From Chryseobacterium gleum (lineage in GTDB: Bacteria; Bacteroidota; Bacteroidia; UBA10329), in the NCBI GenBank assembly GCA_945903645.1, contig CAMDOM010000033.1, positions 1 through 39,435 on the forward strand: a stretch of 39,435 bases of DNA, given 5' to 3'. The position numbers were made by a program, and so were the translations under genes. How positions within the stretch are numbered: the first letter of the stretch is position 1; the number at the start of each line of letters is the position of its first letter. Below, piece by piece: positions 7,744 through 35,374 of the stretch. The notes under the pieces were generated by a model that saw nothing but the letters and a program-made list of their open reading frames with translations, was not told the origin of the DNA and searched no databases.

Positions 7744-8175
7744 CTAAGCCAAAAAGATTAGGTTGATTACCGTGAGTATAAAATACGGTACAAGGGTTGC
7801 TGCTCCAGCATAATCTTTCGCTACGCGCTGCCCAAAAAACAGCATCAGTAGTGTAATTGCGCTAAGTAGCAAACCTGCAAAACCAAAGCAGAACGATTTA
7901 TATACTACGGCTTCTATAGCGCCAAACAAACACGTAAGCCCAGCTGCAAGCTCAAGAGCTGTGAGTGTTGATAGTAAAATTGGAACCAGTCCAGCAAGGA
8001 AAGATGCGGAGAAATGTCCTTTCAGCCAATCTAAGTTTCCTTTGAAATGAAATGTTTTATCCAAACCTGATTGAATAAATACAATTGCCAAAAAGGAGGA
8101 AACGAGCGCTTGAATAACCCACATACCTTGAAAGTGGGCCAAAATTCCGCAATTAGAAATAGCTTGAATTGCCAT
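7744..8175 (-). CDS. DoxX-like integral membrane protein
   Basis: A 143-residue hydrophobic protein with four predicted membrane helices (about 21-38, 58-80, 83-107 and 125-142). The first helix contains FLAIVFIQSGLDKTFHFKGN, reminiscent of the GxxKL region of DoxX/DoxD-type proteins. The function of such proteins is mostly unknown; some act in redox processes. The start at 8175 lies 2 nt after the stop of the FMN reductase gene (TAA CC ATG), which argues for translational coupling; an internal ATG at codon 18 is an alternative. It is the last gene of the rocD run. Confidence 0.72.
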   Translation of the reverse strand: MAIQAISNCGILAHFQGMWVIQALVSSFLAIVFIQSGLDKTFHFKGNLDWLKGHFSASFLAGLVPILLSTLTALELAAGLTCLFGAIEAVVYKSFCFGFAGLLLSAITLLMLFFGQRVAKDYAGAATLVPYFILTVINLIFLA

Positions 8176-8177
8176 GG

Positions 8178-8699
8178 TTAATACGCTAAAAATCCATCAA
8201 TCTGCAGTTGAATTTCTTTCAACGCAGCTTCACTTGTTAGTTCTCCATCAGAATTCAAATGATTGGAAATCTGTGATATATAGACTTTTCTCCAAAATAC
8301 TGATGAGCCTAAATAATGGAAAATTCCTGTGAGATGGTCTAGTCCACGAAGATTGCCACTTCTGCCGCTGGCTACACCTACAAGTGCAATTTTCTTGTCG
8401 GCCCAATCTCCGTAGGCACAACCATCAATAAAGTACTTTAGTATTCCAGGAAAGCTTCCATTGTATTCTGGCACAACGAGTACAAGTTTGTTTGCTTTGT
8501 GAATATACTGCCTAATAATGGAATCCATTTCTTGTGAGATGGAACTGAACGAATTCTGTTCAATCCAACCAGCAGACACATCTAATAAGTTTAAAATTTG
8601 GGTATCTGCGCCATTTCGCTGCAACATAGGCGCATAATTCTGCGCCACTTTCATTGAATTGCTATTCGGGCGGTTTGTTCCGCAAATCACAGTTATCAT
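8178..8699 (-). CDS. NADPH-dependent FMN reductase family protein
   Basis: A 173-residue flavodoxin-fold protein of the SsuE/ArsH/azoreductase group. The FMN phosphate loop is GTNRPNSNS (residues 7-15). The isoalloxazine-contacting loop PEYNGSFPG lies near 97-105, and GVASGRSGNLRGLDHL near 127-142 completes the site. It is predicted to be a cytoplasmic quinone or flavin reductase; the electron acceptor is unknown. It starts 2 nt after the upstream repeat-protein gene and is followed 2 nt later by a DoxX-like gene. A reductase next to a DoxX protein is a reasonable redox pairing (inference). Confidence 0.88.
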   Translation of the reverse strand: MITVICGTNRPNSNSMKVAQNYAPMLQRNGADTQILNLLDVSAGWIEQNSFSSISQEMDSIIRQYIHKANKLVLVVPEYNGSFPGILKYFIDGCAYGDWADKKIALVGVASGRSGNLRGLDHLTGIFHYLGSSVFWRKVYISQISNHLNSDGELTSEAALKEIQLQIDGFLAY

Positions 8700-8701
8700 T
8701 C

Positions 8702-9157
8702 CTATTTCTTTTCGCTCGAAAGACGGTTCAAAAAATTGAAGTCTCGCTGCACCACTGCTTTGCCAAGATAGTAGATATCATCAGAAGTTACGTTTTCTAA
8801 ATAAGCTGTTGTCTTCTCAAAAATTGCTGAACCAAGGTAGAACCAATTGTCATCCTTTATTTTTTGCAACTCTTCCTTGTTTCCAGTGATTAAGGCATTT
8901 CCGAAGAAATAGAGATTGTCATCTTGCACAAAATCCAACAGAGTGGCTTTTCTGAAATAGAGCCCACGAGATAAGTTATAGATGTCGTTGCTTTCAATGT
9001 TAACCCAAGAAAGCGTGTCACCAGTAAGAAGCACATAACCGAGATAATGCAAGTCGTCACCTTTTGCATTTACAAATGAATTTTGGGCTAAAGCATAGGA
9101 ATTCAATCCAAAAATAGAGCTGATAAAAAATGCAATGCCTGCAAAACGTTGAATCAT
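8702..9157 (-). CDS. Secreted protein of five 23-residue aromatic repeats (DKNYY-like)
   Basis: A 151-residue protein whose ATG at 9157 lies 2 nt after the rocD stop. A longer frame exists upstream but lies inside rocD and would bury the signal peptide. Residues 1-25 form a signal peptide ending YALAQ. The rest consists of five degenerate repeats built on [D/N]DxxYxLG; the Gly/Ser of this motif falls at residues 40, 63, 86, 109 and 132, an exact 23-residue period. Each unit ends in an acidic residue, a short helix-like segment and a hydrophobic residue. The pattern recalls the DKNYY repeat family, but I cannot confirm this. It is probably periplasmic or on the outer membrane; function unknown. 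Confidence 0.82.
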   Translation of the reverse strand: MIQRFAGIAFFISSIFGLNSYALAQNSFVNAKGDDLHYLGYVLLTGDTLSWVNIESNDIYNLSRGLYFRKATLLDFVQDDNLYFFGNALITGNKEELQKIKDDNWFYLGSAIFEKTTAYLENVTSDDIYYLGKAVVQRDFNFLNRLSSEKK

Positions 9158-9159
9158 GC

Positions 9160-10440
9160 TTAAAAAGTGCTTAGAACATTTTTGATAATGGAGAGGCATT
9201 CCATAAGCTGACTTTCGGTCATGACAAGCGGTGGTGCAAACCGAATGATGTTTCCATGCGTTGGTTTGGCCAACAATCCCTGATTTGCAAGTTGCAAACA
9301 AATATTCCAAGACGTATCGCTTTCTGGCGTGTCGTTAATTACAATTGCATTTAGCAATCCTTTACCTCGAATTACAGAAATAATAGAATGAGTTTTTGCA
9401 AAATCTTCTAGTTCTTTTCTAAAAATAGCGCCTAAACGTTTGGCATTCTCTGCCAAACACTCGTCTGCAACAACATGTAATGCAGCAATAGCAACCCTTG
9501 CTGCAAGCGGGTTTCCACCAAATGTAGACCCGTGTTGACCAGGCTTTATCACCAACATTATCTCGTCATTGGCCAATACTGCTGAAACGGGCAAAACACC
9601 TCCTGAAAGTGCTTTTCCTAAAATTAGAATATCTGGTTGCGCATAGGTCGCTGGATTTTTCTTGCACGAATTCGTACAATCACAGTTACCGCACACCGCT
9701 AAAAGGCTACCCGTTCTAGCAATTCCAGTTTGAATTTCGTCCGCTAACAGTAAAACATTAGCTTCAGTGCAAAGCTGTCGCGCTTGCATAAGATAATCTT
9801 CGGCTGGAACGTTTACACCAGCTTCACCTTGAATAGGCTCAACAAGAAAACCAATCACATGTGGATTTTTCAGAGCTTGTTTAAGCGCTGAAACATCGTT
9901 GTATTCGATGGTTACAAAACCAGGAGTGTAGGGGCCAAAGCTTTTTCGTGCATCAACATCGTTAGAAAACGAGATAATGGTTGTTGTTCGTCCATGAAAA
10001 TTACCTGAGCAAACCAGAATAACTCCTTCATTTTCGGCTACTCCTTTTTTCTCGTATCCCCATTTTCGGCACAATTTGATTGCAGTTTCCACCGCCTCAG
10101 CGCCAGTGTTCATGGGCAAAAGCTTGTCAAATCCAAAGGTTTCGCAAGCAAACTTTTCATATTCGCCCAACACGTCATTGTGAAAGGCACGGCTGGTTAA
10201 AGTAAGCTTTGAGGCTTGCTGAACCAAGGCGTCAATTATGCGTGGATGGCAATGCCCTTGATTTACAGCAGAGTAGGCCGATAGAAAATCGAAATAACGC
10301 TTGCCGTCCGTGTCCCAAACATAAACTCCCGCACCTCGCTCTAAAACCACTGGCAACGGATGATAGTTGTGGGCTCCGTAACGCTCTTCCTTTTCTATTG
10401 CGGTTTGCGCAGACAACGACAAGTTCAAAACCTCTTCCAT
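9160..10440 (-). CDS. rocD: Ornithine aminotransferase
   Basis: A 426-residue class III PLP enzyme that converts ornithine and 2-oxoglutarate to glutamate-5-semialdehyde and glutamate, linking arginine and proline metabolism. The PLP lysine is K276 in [21 protein letters not shown] (111-122), the cofactor-binding ADEIQTG (233-239) and EPIQGEAG (201-208) are all present. A short cysteine-rich insertion follows (C250, C253, C255, C259) just before the active-site lysine; similar insertions occur in other Bacteroidota ornithine aminotransferases. It is the first gene of a four-gene minus-strand run with 2-nt junctions. A -7 box TATCTTTG lies about 98 nt upstream. Confidence 0.94.
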
Positions 10441-10652: not shown

Positions 10653-11372
10653 TTAAATCAAAGTCTTCATTTCATGCACTAAAATGGACTTCCTGTCGAA
10701 GTTTATTATATCAAGTTCCTTCAGTTCATTCAGTACAGTGGTGACAGTTTGACGAGACGTGGCAGTGATACTGGCAATATCTTGATGCGTGAGTGCGTGG
10801 GAAATTAACACGGATCCGCCAGCAAGAACTTGGCCTCTTTCCAATGCCATCTCTCTAATTATGTCGACAATTCGTGTTCTAGCATCCTTAAAAAGGAGCG
10901 ATTCAAAACGTTTTTCTACCTGATTTAGCTTAGCTCCAATGGCGCTTGCTACTTTTATGCCTAGCTCAGAGTTGTTTCGCATTAGTCGTAGAAAATCATC
11001 AACGTTTATGATGCATACAGAAACTTCTTCATCAAGTGCAATGGCAAAATCTGCGCGCAATGGCTGACCTACTATGCCCATTTCACCAAACATTTCTCCA
11101 GGTTGAACAATTCCTTTGATGTATTCTTTACCGTCAGAGAATGAACTTCCAATTTTAACGCGTCCGCTTGACAGGAAGAATACTGTGTTTGCGGGTTCAT
11201 TTGGATAATATAATTGTTCACCTTTTACCTTTCTCTTTAGTAGAGCATACCGTGTTAAGTAATCGATTTCGGATTCAGATAAATTCTGAAATAAACGTAT
11301 TTGACTCAGCCAATTGTGTTTAGGCCTATTGTTGTCTTTCACGTTGTGAGCGGTTGGAGATAGAGCTATCAT
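10653..11372 (-). CDS. Crp/Fnr family transcriptional regulator
   Basis: About 239 residues. The N-terminal cyclic-nucleotide-binding fold runs over roughly residues 15-135 (WLSQIRLFQNLSESEIDYL at the start, then the PGEMFGEMGIV region). A C-terminal winged helix follows with the recognition helix TSRQTVTTVLNELKEL. There are no N-terminal cysteines for an Fnr iron-sulfur cluster, so it is Crp-like or of another subgroup; the effector is unknown. The ATG at 11372 is preferred. An in-frame GTG at 11444 would add 24 residues with no family resemblance. The gene is divergent from ffh and lies upstream of rocD in the same direction, with 212 nt between them. Confidence 0.88.
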   Translation of the reverse strand: MIALSPTAHNVKDNNRPKHNWLSQIRLFQNLSESEIDYLTRYALLKRKVKGEQLYYPNEPANTVFFLSSGRVKIGSSFSDGKEYIKGIVQPGEMFGEMGIVGQPLRADFAIALDEEVSVCIINVDDFLRLMRNNSELGIKVASAIGAKLNQVEKRFESLLFKDARTRIVDIIREMALERGQVLAGGSVLISHALTHQDIASITATSRQTVTTVLNELKELDIINFDRKSILVHEMKTLI

Positions 11373-11464
11373 AGTTCTATAACCTTCAAGGTCTATGTTT
11401 GTTCTCGCACCGTAGAATGGCCGAAATATTTTAGTGCTATTCACGCGGTAAGGCGCCTCAGCCT

Positions 11465-12847: not shown

Positions 12848-13024
12848 TTTCACTAAAAATATTTTCCTGAATGCATTTACACGACATATTCAAAATAATT
12901 GTATATTTCGAGCACTTTTGTTGAGATATCAACATTTTATGTGAGTGAAATGAATATAATTAGGATTGATGCGTGAATAACGTAGTCAGTCGTTTTGATT
13001 GGTTTGTACATGTATTAAGATTTG

Positions 13025-13936
13025 ATGAGACTACTGGACGGAAAAATTATTGCAGATCAGGTGAAGGCTGAACTAGCCATCCAAGTAGCCGAGATTGTTA
13101 CCAGTGGAAATCGTCCTCCACATTTAGCGGCTATCCTAGTTGGAAATGATGGCGCTAGCGAAACTTATGTTGCGAGCAAAGTAAAGTCCTGTAAAGAAAT
13201 TGGTTTTGAATCTACGTTGGTTCGTTTGCCAAGTGAAGCCACACTTCAAGACGTGCTTTTTGAAGTGAATCGCATAAACGAGAATGATGCTATTGATGGT
13301 TTAATTGTGCAATTACCATTGCCGCATCATATTGATGAACAAAAAGTTACGCTTGCTGTGAGACCCTCAAAAGATGTTGATGGCTTCCACCCAGAAAACT
13401 TAGGTAAGCTGGTTTTGGGAATGGAAACGTTTGTTTCTGCCACCCCCGCAGGAATTATGGAGTTGCTGAAACGGTATCAAATTGAGACGGCTGGTAAGCA
13501 TTGTGTAGTGCTTGGAAGAAGCAATATTGTTGGAACGCCCATGTCTATTCTGTTGAGTAGAAATAGTAATCCAGGAAATAGTACAGTAACATTGTGCCAC
13601 AGTAGAACTAAGGATTTATCTTCTTTTACAAGAAGTGCTGATATTTTGATTGTTGCTTTGGGGAAACCTGAGTTTGTAACCGCTGATATGGTGAAGGAAG
13701 GCGCGGTTGTGGTTGATGTAGGAATAACTAGGATTGATGATTTAAAATCGCCTAAGGGTTACAGAATTGTTGGTGATGTAGCCTTCGATGAAGTCGCCTC
13801 AAAGGCTAGTTTTATCACGCCTGTTCCAGGTGGAGTTGGTCGTATGACTATTGCTTCCCTACTAAAAAATACAATGCTCGCCAGAATGAAAACCATGTCA
13901 AACCAAAAACAACAAATTCATGTCAGTAAAAATTAA
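13025..13936 (+). CDS. folD: Methylenetetrahydrofolate dehydrogenase/cyclohydrolase FolD
   Basis: A 303-residue bifunctional enzyme interconverting 5,10-methylene-, methenyl- and 10-formyl-tetrahydrofolate with NADP. Signatures: [14 protein letters not shown] (the catalytic Lys lies in this block), [24 protein letters not shown], the Rossmann loop [13 protein letters not shown] and [12 protein letters not shown]. The ATG at 13025 is used; a TTG directly before it is less likely. The final 17 nt overlap the next gene. The 177 nt before it hold no recognised gene. Confidence 0.96.
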
Positions 13937-14465
13937 GCTTAAGAATAGGGAAGACGAACACGTCATTGTAGACGAGTCTTCTCTGAATGATATCAAGGCT
14001 AATCCCTACATGATATCTATTAAATTTTTGGATAATTTGCGTGCCCATTCCAATGGATATGCTGTCTACCAACGTTGCATTACCACGAAACAAGGTCCTG
14101 TTTACGAAACCATTTACTTGCACAAGTACATTGCAGAAAAATTCTGCAAAAAGCCAGTTGATCAGGGTAAAAAGCTCTTTGTTCGTTTTATAAATGGCAA
14201 TGTATTAGATGCTCGATTAGAAAACCTTGAATGGGTTACTATGAATACCTTGAGAAGACAAATGAAAAACTTCACAAGCAAATCTGGTTTCCGTGGAGTA
14301 ACTCAAGAAAAGGATAGATTTCGGGCGGTAATTTATTATCAAAGAAAGGCTGTGAATCTTGGGTTTTTCAAAACTGCCGAAGAAGCAGCTGCGGCATACA
14401 ATAAAAAGTCGCAAGAATTGTTTGGAGACACAGCTAGTCTTAATAAGCTTGCTATAAAAAAGTAG
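13920..14465 (+). CDS. AP2-domain protein with a degenerate HNH-like N-terminal half
   Basis: A 181-residue protein. Residues 122-176 are an AP2/ERF-type DNA-binding domain: SGFRGV, a central basic strand with RFRAVIYY, the [14 protein letters not shown] turn-helix and a terminal LN. Residues 66-107 resemble the HNH_3 fold of homing endonucleases ([20 protein letters not shown]). The central histidine of the usual VNHxDGN is replaced (VRFINGN), so nuclease activity is doubtful. AP2 domains in bacteria usually sit in HNH homing endonucleases; this looks like a domesticated descendant, perhaps a DNA-binding regulator. It overlaps the end of folD by 17 nt and is followed by a terminator, so it is the last gene of that transcript. 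Confidence 0.82.
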
Positions 14466-19775: not shown

Positions 19776-21245
19776 ATGAAACATATACTGGTTTCAATTA
19801 CCCTCCTAGTCCTCTGTGCGCCTTATATGTTTGCGCAAATGCAATTCGTCAAAATCTATGGCGGAGGGTCTTATGACGTGGGCAAATCGGTAATTCAAAC
19901 AGATGATGACGGTTATGTGATCGCAGGCTCCACGGGAAGTTTTGATCTGGATAATGGTCAATTCATGCTAATTAGGACCGATGCATGGGGAAGCGAGCAA
20001 TGGCGGAAGTACTATGGTGGTGATTTTTCGGATAACCTAGAAAGTATGGTGGCAACGATTGATGGTGGCTATATCATGGCAGGGGTTAGTGAGACCTTGA
20101 GCGCCAGTTATCAGGTTTTATTGGTGAAGACTGATTTGCTTGGCGATACGATGTGGACCCGACACTATGGTGGACCAAGTTGGGATTACGGACACCAGAT
20201 CATCACTATGAGCAGTGGTGGTTATGCCGTGGTGGGGCAGACCTACAGTTTTGGACAGGGACAAGGCGATGTTCTGATCTTAAGGCTTGATGAAGCAGGG
20301 GACGTATTATGGATGAAGACCTATGGAAGTCCAGCCCAAGAGGCCGGTCATTCGATTGATGAGACCATGGATGGAGGTCTGATCGTTGCAGGCTATACAG
20401 AAGGATTTGGCGGTGGGGGCAAAGATGCTTGGGTACTAAGACTAGATGCTTTGGGAGATTCGCTTTGGACGAGGACTTTTGGAGGTGTAGAAGATGATGT
20501 GGCCAATGCCATTGTGGCCACGTCAGATGGTGGATTTGCCTTTTCGGGAGGAAGAACAAGTAATGGGGTAGGAGGTTTTGATTTCAATGTCACAAAGATG
20601 AATAACCAAGGACTGGAGCTTTGGTCATTCTTATATGGAGGACCTTTGAACGATGTGTGGAATGATATCATAGAGCAGGATGGCGGTCGACTTGCAACCA
20701 TCGGTTATTCCCAGACAACCACAGCAGGTGGTGGTGGTGACGACCTTTTCATTCTAAGATTGACGCATGATGGCCTGTATGATGAATCAAGAACGTATGG
20801 CGAACTGGGCGATGAAAGAGGGCATAGCATTATTACTACTTCAGATGGCGGGTATCTGCTTCTTGGCGAGACAACAGGGTATCTTGATAGAATGACTGAT
20901 GCAATAGCCTACAAGACAGGTCCTAATGGTGAAGGGGTTGTTTTTACAGTTGGCATTCAGGAGTCCACCATTGGGGAGGAACTTTCTATTGCCGTGGCGC
21001 CAAATCCATTTTCTGAGTATGCCTATTTTACTTTGAGAGGTTACAGGGCATCTGCTTCAAAATGGAGGTCAGCTGTCGAGTTGCACGTATATGACATGTT
21101 CGGAAAACAGATCTACACTCAATTGATTGAGAATGAGGTCACTCCATTATTGCTGTCACAACTGGCAGATGGGGTTTATAGCTACCGAGTTTCATCAAGT
21201 GGAGCGTTTTCGCTTTCAGGAACCATTGTGAAAACGGGTTATTGA
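19776..21245 (+). CDS. T9SS-secreted seven-bladed beta-propeller protein
   Basis: 489 residues. A signal peptide ends YMFAQ at about residue 21. The body is seven repeats of about 50-54 residues, each opening with GGxxxD (one has GSPAQE, one GELGDE), passing through a [D/S]GG[Y/F]xxxG strand and ending in a D..G..W..xY strand; seven blades would close a propeller. The C-terminal 80 residues (VAPNPFSEYAYF, VYDMFGKQIY, LADGVYSYRV) are a T9SS type A sorting domain, so the protein is exported and probably attached to the cell surface. Ligand and role are unknown. Confidence 0.85.
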   Translation: MKHILVSITLLVLCAPYMFAQMQFVKIYGGGSYDVGKSVIQTDDDGYVIAGSTGSFDLDNGQFMLIRTDAWGSEQWRKYYGGDFSDNLESMVATIDGGYIMAGVSETLSASYQVLLVKTDLLGDTMWTRHYGGPSWDYGHQIITMSSGGYAVVGQTYSFGQGQGDVLILRLDEAGDVLWMKTYGSPAQEAGHSIDETMDGGLIVAGYTEGFGGGGKDAWVLRLDALGDSLWTRTFGGVEDDVANAIVATSDGGFAFSGGRTSNGVGGFDFNVTKMNNQGLELWSFLYGGPLNDVWNDIIEQDGGRLATIGYSQTTTAGGGGDDLFILRLTHDGLYDESRTYGELGDERGHSIITTSDGGYLLLGETTGYLDRMTDAIAYKTGPNGEGVVFTVGIQESTIGEELSIAVAPNPFSEYAYFTLRGYRASASKWRSAVELHVYDMFGKQIYTQLIENEVTPLLLSQLADGVYSYRVSSSGAFSLSGTIVKTGY

Positions 21246-28840: not shown

Positions 28841-28881
28841 CTCTTGATTGAATTTTGAGTTTTTTCACTTTTAGTTTCTCC

Positions 28882-28889
28882 TATTTTTG
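28882..28889 (+). promoter_or_regulatory. -7 element directly before the phoD-like gene
   Basis: TATTTTTG matches TAnnTTTG and is separated from the ATG at 28894 by GAGG only. The nearest upstream TTG is 24 bp away, slightly long. The GAGG touches the ATG, so it is not placed to work as a Shine-Dalgarno sequence. Confidence 0.45.
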
Positions 28890-28893
28890 GAGG

Positions 28894-30741
28894 ATGTATT
28901 TCACAAAATTTTCCTTCAAACTGGTGGTGTTTGCGCTACTTCAAAGCAACGTTTTATTCCATGCAGTTGCCCAAACTTCCGAAGTTAATCCAGTCACAGC
29001 TGGGCGCAGTGATCTAAATCCAGATTTAGCACCGTTTTATCATGGTGTGGCGTCAGGTGATCCGCTTCTGGACGCAGTAATTATCTGGACGCGCATCACA
29101 CTGCCCGATGAAGTGCCTGTGCAAGTAAATTGGCGAATGGCTGAGGATACTTTATTTTCGAATATTGTAGGCTCAGGAACTGAAACAGTAACAGCAAGCA
29201 CCGATTGGACGCTTCAAGTTGATGTGACAGGTTTGTCCGAAAATTCATGGTACTACTACGAGTTTGAGTATAATGGACAACGTTCCATAATGGGTCGTAC
29301 CCACACTGCTCCTTCAGGTGGAGTTGATCAACTGCGTTTTGGTGTGGTTTCGTGTTCTAACTACGAACATGGTTTTTTCAACGCCTATAAAAGTCTAGCC
29401 GAACGCAATGACGTGGATGCAATTTTGCATCTAGGTGATTATATTTACGAATACGAAGTTGGCGGCTACAGCTCAAATATAGCTGGTCGTGAAAGCGAGC
29501 CTACCAACGAAATAGTGACCTTAGAGGATTACCGAACACGATACTCGCACTACCGATTAGACGCGGATTTGCAGGAAATTCATCGGCAGTATCCCTTCAT
29601 AGTTATTTGGGATGACCACGAAACAGCCGACAATTCATGGAATGGAGGTGCCAGTAATCATAGTCAAGGTAGCGAAGGGCTTTGGGTCGACAGGAAATCT
29701 GCGGCAATCTTAGCCAATGAGGAGTGGGTTCCCATGCGCAAACCAGATCCAAATAATGTTGAGCGCATTTATCGCGATTTTGGCTTTGGGTCTATGGCTG
29801 ATATAATGATGTTGGATACCCGCTTGTATGCTCGCGATTTGCAGAATACTGGCGTAGCTCAAAACAGAAATCTTTTGGGATATGAGCAGCGGCAGTGGTT
29901 GTACTCCAACCTCTCGCAGTCTACAGCCAAGTGGAAAGTGATTGGACAGCAGGTTATGATGGCCCCATTGCTTTTTGCTGGCACACCCGTGAATAACGAC
30001 CAATGGGATGGGTATCCTAGCGAGCGCGATAGCTTGCTCACTCATCTCAATAGCAATAACATCGACAACAGCGTAGTACTCACTGGCGATATTCATACAT
30101 CTTGGGGCAATGATATTCGCCAAGGCGCAGATGCCGTTGCAGTTGAGTTTGTTGTGACTAGTGTAACTTCTCCAGGATTCCCTTTACCAGTTGGGTCAGC
30201 ATTGATACAGACGTTCAATCCGCACATGAAGTATATCAACCTTACTGCCAATGGGTACTTGATTTTGGATTTGACAGAAGAAGCGGCTCAATCCGATTGG
30301 TATTACATTTCCACGAAGCTTGACCCTGTATTCACAACATCATTAGGTGCCAGTTGGAAAACCAACGATGGCGACAACTTTCTTTCTCAAGCTTCTGGTG
30401 CAACTGTAGGTACTGAATATCCACCTTTAGCACCCGTTGCACCCGACTCTAGTGTTGGTATCAATGAAACCGCTTCTGCTCTGGATGGTATAATCGTAAG
30501 TGCCTATCCAAATCCTTTCCTAGACAAATTCACCGTTCAGTTTAATGCGTTCGAATCTGCCAAAGTGGTTTTCAGTTTGACGGATTTGTTGGGTAGAGTA
30601 ATTCTAGAAAAGGAGTTAGGCCAACTGCCTGTTGGGTTGCACTACCTAGAAGTCGAAACACCGGAAGTCAAATCGGGTGCCTATGTGTTTAGTTTAATAA
30701 TTGGCGAACAACGGATGGTTCGTAATATAGTTAAGATTTAG
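28894..30741 (+). CDS. PhoD-type alkaline phosphatase/phosphodiesterase with a T9SS tail
   Basis: 615 residues. The ATG at 28894 is chosen over an in-frame TTG 39 nt upstream because it opens the signal peptide (ending HAVAQ). The N-terminal Ig-like PhoD_N domain starts at FYHGVASGDPLLDAVIIWTR. The metallophosphatase core has SCSNYEHGFFNAY, LHLGDYIYEY, WDDHETADNSW, DTRLYARD and the late LTGDIHTSW. The last 80 residues (AYPNPFLDKFTV, LTDLLGRVIL, GAYVFSLI) are a T9SS type A sorting domain, so it should be exported through the outer membrane rather than by Tat as in classical PhoD. It probably releases phosphate from external phosphodiesters. Confidence 0.92.
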   Translation: MYFTKFSFKLVVFALLQSNVLFHAVAQTSEVNPVTAGRSDLNPDLAPFYHGVASGDPLLDAVIIWTRITLPDEVPVQVNWRMAEDTLFSNIVGSGTETVTASTDWTLQVDVTGLSENSWYYYEFEYNGQRSIMGRTHTAPSGGVDQLRFGVVSCSNYEHGFFNAYKSLAERNDVDAILHLGDYIYEYEVGGYSSNIAGRESEPTNEIVTLEDYRTRYSHYRLDADLQEIHRQYPFIVIWDDHETADNSWNGGASNHSQGSEGLWVDRKSAAILANEEWVPMRKPDPNNVERIYRDFGFGSMADIMMLDTRLYARDLQNTGVAQNRNLLGYEQRQWLYSNLSQSTAKWKVIGQQVMMAPLLFAGTPVNNDQWDGYPSERDSLLTHLNSNNIDNSVVLTGDIHTSWGNDIRQGADAVAVEFVVTSVTSPGFPLPVGSALIQTFNPHMKYINLTANGYLILDLTEEAAQSDWYYISTKLDPVFTTSLGASWKTNDGDNFLSQASGATVGTEYPPLAPVAPDSSVGINETASALDGIIVSAYPNPFLDKFTVQFNAFESAKVVFSLTDLLGRVILEKELGQLPVGLHYLEVETPEVKSGAYVFSLIIGEQRMVRNIVKI

Positions 30742-34801: not shown

Positions 34802-35374
34802 GTGGCATTATACTACACTTCAGATGCTGAATTTGTCGGGGTAGACCACCGCATTGTTCCTTTGCCCATGGGCGAATACGAGCAATGTGTGTTTCGTCAG
34901 TGCGTGTTTGCCAGTGCCAACTTTGGCGACTATTGCTTTGTCGATTGCCAGTTCAATCAATGCGATTTGAGTTTGGTACACCTCGGTCGCACGGCCTTTA
35001 AGAATGTGCAGTTCAAAGACTGCAAATTGCTTGGTGTACATTTCGATGTGTGCAACACGTTTTTGTTGGATCTGCAATTTGAAGGATGCATGCTCAATCT
35101 TAGCAGCTTCCACAAGCTGAAACTCAAAAACACGCGTTTTAGCAAATGTGCATTGCAAGAGGTCGATTTTGCAGAAACCAACCTAACAGGTGCAACATTC
35201 GATGGCTGCGACCTAAATAGAGCTGTGTTCGACCGCACCACCCTTGATGCTGCCGATTTTCGTTTGGCATCCAACTACATAATCGACCCCGAGAAAAACA
35301 GCCTCCGTAAAGCCCACTTCTCCCAAGATGGCCTTGTTGATTTGTTACAACGATACGATATTCGGGTAGGTTAG
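34802..35374 (+). CDS. Qnr/McbG-like pentapeptide repeat protein
   Basis: 190 residues with a GTG start. Nearly the whole chain is pentapeptide repeats of the A(D/N)LXX type with Phe or Leu at the centre (VFRQC VFASA NFGDY; QFNQC; AFKNV QFKDC), forming a right-handed square beta-helix. The C-terminal SNYIIDPEKNSLRKAHFS and the following short helix are the capping and dimer motif seen in Qnr and related proteins. Qnr proteins mimic DNA and protect gyrase; chromosomal relatives like this one have mostly unknown roles, so no resistance function is claimed. Confidence 0.88.
   Translation: MALYYTSDAEFVGVDHRIVPLPMGEYEQCVFRQCVFASANFGDYCFVDCQFNQCDLSLVHLGRTAFKNVQFKDCKLLGVHFDVCNTFLLDLQFEGCMLNLSSFHKLKLKNTRFSKCALQEVDFAETNLTGATFDGCDLNRAVFDRTTLDAADFRLASNYIIDPEKNSLRKAHFSQDGLVDLLQRYDIRVG

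Follow-up and report, generated by a model that had tools for sequence, protein, structure and literature searches.

Repeat units of about the length described here are known from leucine-rich-variant (LRV) proteins, whose unit has 23-24 residues, and from bacterial 23-residue leucine-rich repeats (LRR), a family with the signature pattern LxxLxLxxN. The TPR unit has 34 residues, and its first helix has the spacing W4-L7-G8-Y11. DKNYY repeats (PF13644) occur in tandem in Bacteroidota, and show an aromatic pair followed by G and a later D(P)-x-x-[F/L] (by eye). Helical repeats have the unit lengths given in PMC11514114, namely 31-36 residues for PPR, 36-44 for Sel1 and 42 for ARM, and beside these three a unit of 23 residues is short for two helices. 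Our literature search found no description of a helical 23-residue solenoid repeat.

We analysed a protein of five 23-residue units, here called REP (P0001), which is encoded directly behind rocD in a stretch of DNA of 39,435 nucleotides (the window, meaning the whole stretch). The features of the locus are as follows.

8702-9157, minus strand: REP, probably exported five-repeat protein (P0001), 151 residues; open reading frame, with a homologue carried by 16 of 395 class genomes (own genome included)
9083-9157, minus strand: signal-peptide-like N terminus, residues 1-25, ending in ALAQ, read by eye
8993-9061, minus strand: REP repeat unit 1, residues 33-55, from self-comparison at lag 23
8924-8992, minus strand: REP repeat unit 2, residues 56-78, from self-comparison at lag 23
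8855-8923, minus strand: REP repeat unit 3, residues 79-101, from self-comparison at lag 23
8786-8854, minus strand: REP repeat unit 4, residues 102-124, from self-comparison at lag 23
8717-8785, minus strand: REP repeat unit 5, residues 125-147, from self-comparison at lag 23
9160-10440, minus strand: rocD, ornithine--oxo-acid transaminase (TIGR01885 at 618.8 bits, cut-off 378.4)
8178-8699, minus strand: NADPH-dependent FMN reductase-like protein (PF03358, E 3.2e-23)
7744-8175, minus strand: small protein, membrane-like and by eye similar to DoxX, without a Pfam match at E<=1
10653-11444, minus strand: Crp/Fnr-family regulator upstream of rocD (PF00027, PF13545)

The period of REP was established directly. 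Self-comparison at a lag of 23 residues gave a BLOSUM62 sum of +94, against +27 for the best of 5000 shuffles taken at any lag from 5 to 59, which is beyond chance. A sequence-only reading of this DNA had described five exact 23-residue repeats. The period is indeed exact, since five units with a motif spacing of 23-23-23-23 were found in all 16 homologues, but the unit sequences are degenerate and any two units of REP have just 3-7 of 23 residues in common. Likewise, the two-residue pairs that had been read as LG or LS recur without drift at residues 39 (LG), 62 (LS), 85 (FG), 108 (LG) and 131 (LG), but the one at 85-86 is FG. An alignment of 11 sequences (A1) contained zero gaps within the repeats. 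Corresponding units of different genomes were 56% identical and different units 33%, as determined in 14 of the 16 homologues, two of which missed a text pattern; position, permutation and spacing counts used all 16. These identities indicate that each of the five units is conserved as such at its own place, in the manner of a set structure. Across the 80 units of the 16 homologues we counted D/N at position 2 in 79 units and at position 3 in all 80, L/F at position 7 in 78, G at position 8 in 69, L at position 19 in 67 and I/V at position 22 in 74. Y predominates at positions 5 and 6, and L, I or M at position 11.

In REP, a leader ending in ALAQ precedes the units, which begin at residues 33, 56, 79, 102 and 125 and are followed by a tail of four residues. 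Hydrophobic leaders end in AQ or SQ across the 11 rows of A1 (by eye), and the Q is invariant in 11/11. Such endings are typical of Bacteroidota export signals. The putative signal peptide, read by eye, suggests that REP is probably exported to the periplasm, and the earlier description of a signal-peptide protein thus stands as that of a regular repeat protein, probably exported, in the rocD cluster. No second copy of REP was found in its own genome, where a profile of the unit (A2) gave one other match, at E 0.083.

The repeats had been said to recall the DKNYY type, and we therefore compared the two. The spacing in REP is a constant 23, unlike that between DKNYY motifs, which is irregular: among 52 spacings shorter than 60 in 18 distinct DKNYY proteins, none was 23 and the commonest, 29, occurred 13 times. 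In ten genomes, eight of them bearing homologues, the PF13644 profile (cut-off 25 bits) gave no match at REP or its homologues at E<=10 after a first-look filter, and its four weak matches in those genomes all lay away from REP. Nor did the profile match any of the 11 sequences of A1 at E<=10, a search in which the HMMER filters drop most matches above about 0.1. Alignment by hhalign with 5 of the 18 distinct DKNYY proteins gave probabilities of about 1% over 18 columns (1.5%, E 0.033, with A1; 0.75%, E 0.075, with A2). The best segment lies in the same register as a gapless by-eye alignment between the unit core of one homologue (L012) and a DKNYY unit (L145), in which an aromatic pair, G and D-P are followed by a later large hydrophobic residue. 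Despite this agreement in register, the low probabilities, the lack of profile matches and the absence of a spacing of 23 make it distinctly improbable that REP is a shortened, diverged DKNYY relative made of beta-hairpins, and the proposed kinship was not borne out.

Scans against Pfam, NCBIfam and PHROGs (the last with 3 proteins) gave sub-threshold matches only, and no family passed. These included Sigma_reg_C (E 0.0079, 1/11 members) and the DcpS N-terminal family (PF05652; 6/11 members, best E 0.0083), the latter covering 49 of 104 profile positions in P0001 with 14.1 bits, below its cut-off of 25; we took the PF05652 match as chance. A single-unit stretch of REP recurrently resembles DcpS scavenger decapping enzymes, in PF05652 and also in the m7GpppX diphosphatase of PDB entry 5bv3 (E 0.016, one stretch, 24/46 positions of A2). 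Though recurring, this resemblance is probably due to chance. The top match in PDB searches shifted with the query (OR464, LIC10831, the diphosphatase, a designed helical repeat, alphaRep), and such matches were also taken as chance.

The unit length of 23 would fit a solenoid of the leucine-rich-repeat or leucine-rich-variant type, with 20-24 residues per unit. The only PDB match of profile A1 was 4u06 (LIC10831, LRR-like sequence; E 0.46, two stretches), and the first phmmer match of P0001 was 4psj (OR464, LRR-like; E 0.0086 over four stretches, the best of which has E 2.4 alone). However, the leucines of REP are spaced L..LG..LL and lack the LRR signature spacing, no LRR or LRV family appeared in the Pfam scans, and the PDB matches of the homologues were to other proteins, all at chance level. 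We therefore regard a solenoid of this type as improbable.

We then considered the fold of the unit. Single-sequence AlphaFold2 modelled the whole of REP as mixed strand and helix, with the strands in the first half (mean pLDDT 36.7), and mature REP as all helix (mean pLDDT 38.3). As both models are unreliable, we infer the fold from the residue pattern. Each of the two segments proposed as helices had an averaged hydrophobic moment that was greater at 100 degrees than at 170 degrees, and windows across the unit boundary preferred 125-150 degrees. For the helical moment the permutation p was 0.066-0.33 in eight tests of chosen segments, which is not significant, and for the strand-type moment at 160-180 degrees it was 0.63-0.95. 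The 80 units contain 13 prolines, every one of them at position 14, 16 or 17, positions that separate the two proposed helices or open the second one. The hydrophobic pattern and the placement of the prolines thus lean, without significance, towards a pair of short helices in each unit. Strands would also accommodate the Tyr-rich YY/YF stretches, and the sequence-only reading had proposed a regular solenoid or stacked beta structure. Regularity stood; a beta fold outside the known families, whether solenoid or stack, appears unlikely. The exact period, the many Tyr, Phe, Ile and Val residues, a short stretch weakly like choline-binding repeats (PF01473, 3/11 members, best E 0.29) and the strands of the full-length model, which carry no confidence, would agree with it, but strand-type alternation is absent at the p values given above and the mature chain was modelled as all helix, itself at useless confidence. 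We favour a helix-turn-helix unit as the predicted fold. The spacing [L/I/W]4-L7-G8-[L/I]11 of the putative first helix recalls that of TPR, although the units are shorter than those of TPR and Sel1, neither of which matched REP in the Pfam scans. An hhalign comparison of A1 with one TPR-containing protein gave 0.1% and aligned outside the TPR part, so it says little.

Profile A1, with the best nine candidates per genome scored, matched REP in the 16 of 395 class genomes listed above, own genome included. Carriers were 7 of the 9 searched genomes of the window's genus, all 7 of a second order, and two others, each alone in its order in the collection searched. In the two congeners lacking a detected REP, contig ends cut the place where it would lie (in G001 rocD ends at residue 261 at the contig end; the G007 contig starts inside the FMN reductase gene, and G007 has no rocD at E<=1e-120), and these absences are therefore not counted as losses. 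A single-sequence search matched 14 of 99 related genomes at E<=0.01, leaving 12 after rejection of two matches in the E range 0.004-0.009: a single stretch within an open frame of 277 residues that begins like a lipoprotein (G080), and a 53-residue match in a frame of 1473 residues (G082). In 395 genomes drawn over the phylum, REP matched its own genome alone. Of 136 rocD loci found, some of them from Rhizobium and other non-Bacteroidota, 80 were kept, including some that are cut short. In none of these 80 did tblastn (E<=1e-3) or the profile (best E 0.4) reveal a homologue. Viral contigs gave 35 pattern matches and no relative of REP, and none was found in the plasmids and phages searched. 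The best reading of this distribution is that REP is an uncharacterised, lineage-restricted, probably exported repeat protein of a few little-known lineages. The highest rocD identity, 77% over a partial rocD, was to Flavobacteriales bacterium UBA10329 (L067). Genomes of the UBA10329 clade are described in PMC7214798 as coming from marine water and sediment, with a G+C content of 42.1-49.4%; that of the window is 42.8%. The window may therefore belong near this clade.

The neighbours named by the sequence-only reading, an aminotransferase and a flavin reductase, were confirmed as ornithine aminotransferase and an FMN reductase-like protein by the matches listed above. On the minus strand of the window rocD, REP, the FMN reductase-like gene and the small membrane-like gene follow one another with 2 bases between each. 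Fifteen of the 16 genomes, from three orders, carry REP directly 3' of rocD and on its strand, so that the absence from all relatives' rocD loci that would have told against the sequence-only reading was not observed. With all start codons as candidates and the one nearest the rocD stop taken, the REP start overlaps that stop by four bases with GTG in six congeners and lies 0-3 bases past it in eight genomes (2 in the window, 0 or 3 in the seven of the second order); in L012 several starts are possible, and the choice is unsettled. Since REP lies directly behind rocD, its co-translation with rocD is very likely.

Genes further away were less constant. An FMN reductase was detected beside REP in 8 of 16 loci and the small membrane-like gene in 6 of 16, with one other locus ending before it. 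Upstream of rocD, a Crp/Fnr homologue was present in three of eight neighbourhoods (L140, L142 and L139), and in L139 an opposite-strand open reading frame lies between the two. Four neighbourhoods of the second order had different downstream genes, MiaE-like and GDSL-type in the one tested. As the genes beyond REP vary between groups, rocD and REP form the constant pair. The exception to linkage is G049, where rocD and REP are on separate contigs and REP has ffh on one side and a gene for a TonB_C-domain protein on the other; linkage to rocD is therefore not essential for REP. At this locus (L138, 3143-5283) REP is directly behind the 531-residue TonB_C protein (E 4.7e-07), which also has a weak sub-threshold VWA match, and ahead of ffh.

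It is a real, if doubtful, possibility that REP is unrelated to ornithine metabolism and merely rides in the cluster, a reading compatible with any fold. It would account for the separation in G049, for the rocD loci without REP and the 379 of 395 class genomes in which none was found, and for the presence of rocD in 22 of 24 genomes tested while REP is mostly absent from the class. Linkage at 15 of 16 loci in three orders argues against it, as does the persistence of the rocD-REP pair while the genes further downstream differ between groups.

We also examined the phylogeny of rocD in a tree of 86 rows, which left out L008 (a locus without rocD), the duplicates L122, L125 and L126, the partial L067, L110 and L136, and loci L068-L082 and L085-L094. 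The REP-linked rocD genes were not drawn as a single clade; those of the second order and G053 formed a supported group and those of six congeners another, and the forks separating these groups carried no support mark. This scatter could have arisen because the pair spread or was lost repeatedly, or could reflect a poorly resolved tree. The rocD of the window (9160-10440, minus strand) grouped weakly (98/68) with G012 and a Flavobacteriaceae MAG, apart from the six congeners, which could be due to exchange of rocD or, again, to poor resolution.

Other genes of the window, all on the plus strand, include a second regular repeat protein, a pentapeptide-repeat protein of 190 residues at 34802-35374 (PF13599, E 9.9e-35). 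Sub-threshold type IX secretion tails (PF18962) were seen at 19776-21245 and 28855-30741, and the product of the latter also has a PhoD-like phosphatase domain. A gene at 13920-14465 overlaps the 3' end of a folD-like gene (13022-13936, by eye) by 17 bases; the product of the former resembles HNH_3 endonucleases (PF13392, E 5e-06), and its C-terminal part is AP2-like by eye.

Taken together, we tentatively propose, at a little under even confidence, that REP is an exported solenoid of helix pairs, made together with ornithine aminotransferase and acting by binding in the periplasm. It would be a small solenoid-type protein of five 23-residue units. In each unit, positions 2-12 or so ([D/N]-D-[L/I/W]-Y-Y-L-G-x-A-L-L) would form a longer helix and positions 16-22 or so (x-x-x-L-x-x-I) a second, short one, and the helix pairs would stack into a rigid rod. 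Translation would proceed in step with that of rocD. A binding function is most likely by analogy with other repeat proteins and from the conserved Asp and Tyr positions: the repeated Asp and Tyr/Phe residues would give a patterned surface, to which a partner protein, a cation or some basic compound could bind during the use of ornithine or arginine. In a bolder form, which we consider rather unlikely, REP would represent an uncatalogued repeat family with an unusually short two-helix unit of 23 residues. On this view it would also be a partner reserved for ornithine aminotransferase in a few Bacteroidota lineages, with its translation coupled to that of the enzyme, and would carry out a step of ornithine or arginine use outside the cytoplasm, for instance by capturing or sensing a ligand. 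Our literature search found nothing on a rocD operon of Bacteroidetes with ornithine aminotransferase.

At present REP adds one gene to those that are uncharacterised and restricted to a lineage, although its genomic context is unusually tight. As a compact natural protein of five units and fixed length, it is useful for studies of repeat-protein folding. If the proposal were true, a short and very regular repeat unit would be added to the catalogue, and REP would provide a defined example of a link between an exported protein and a cytoplasmic enzyme of amino-acid catabolism.
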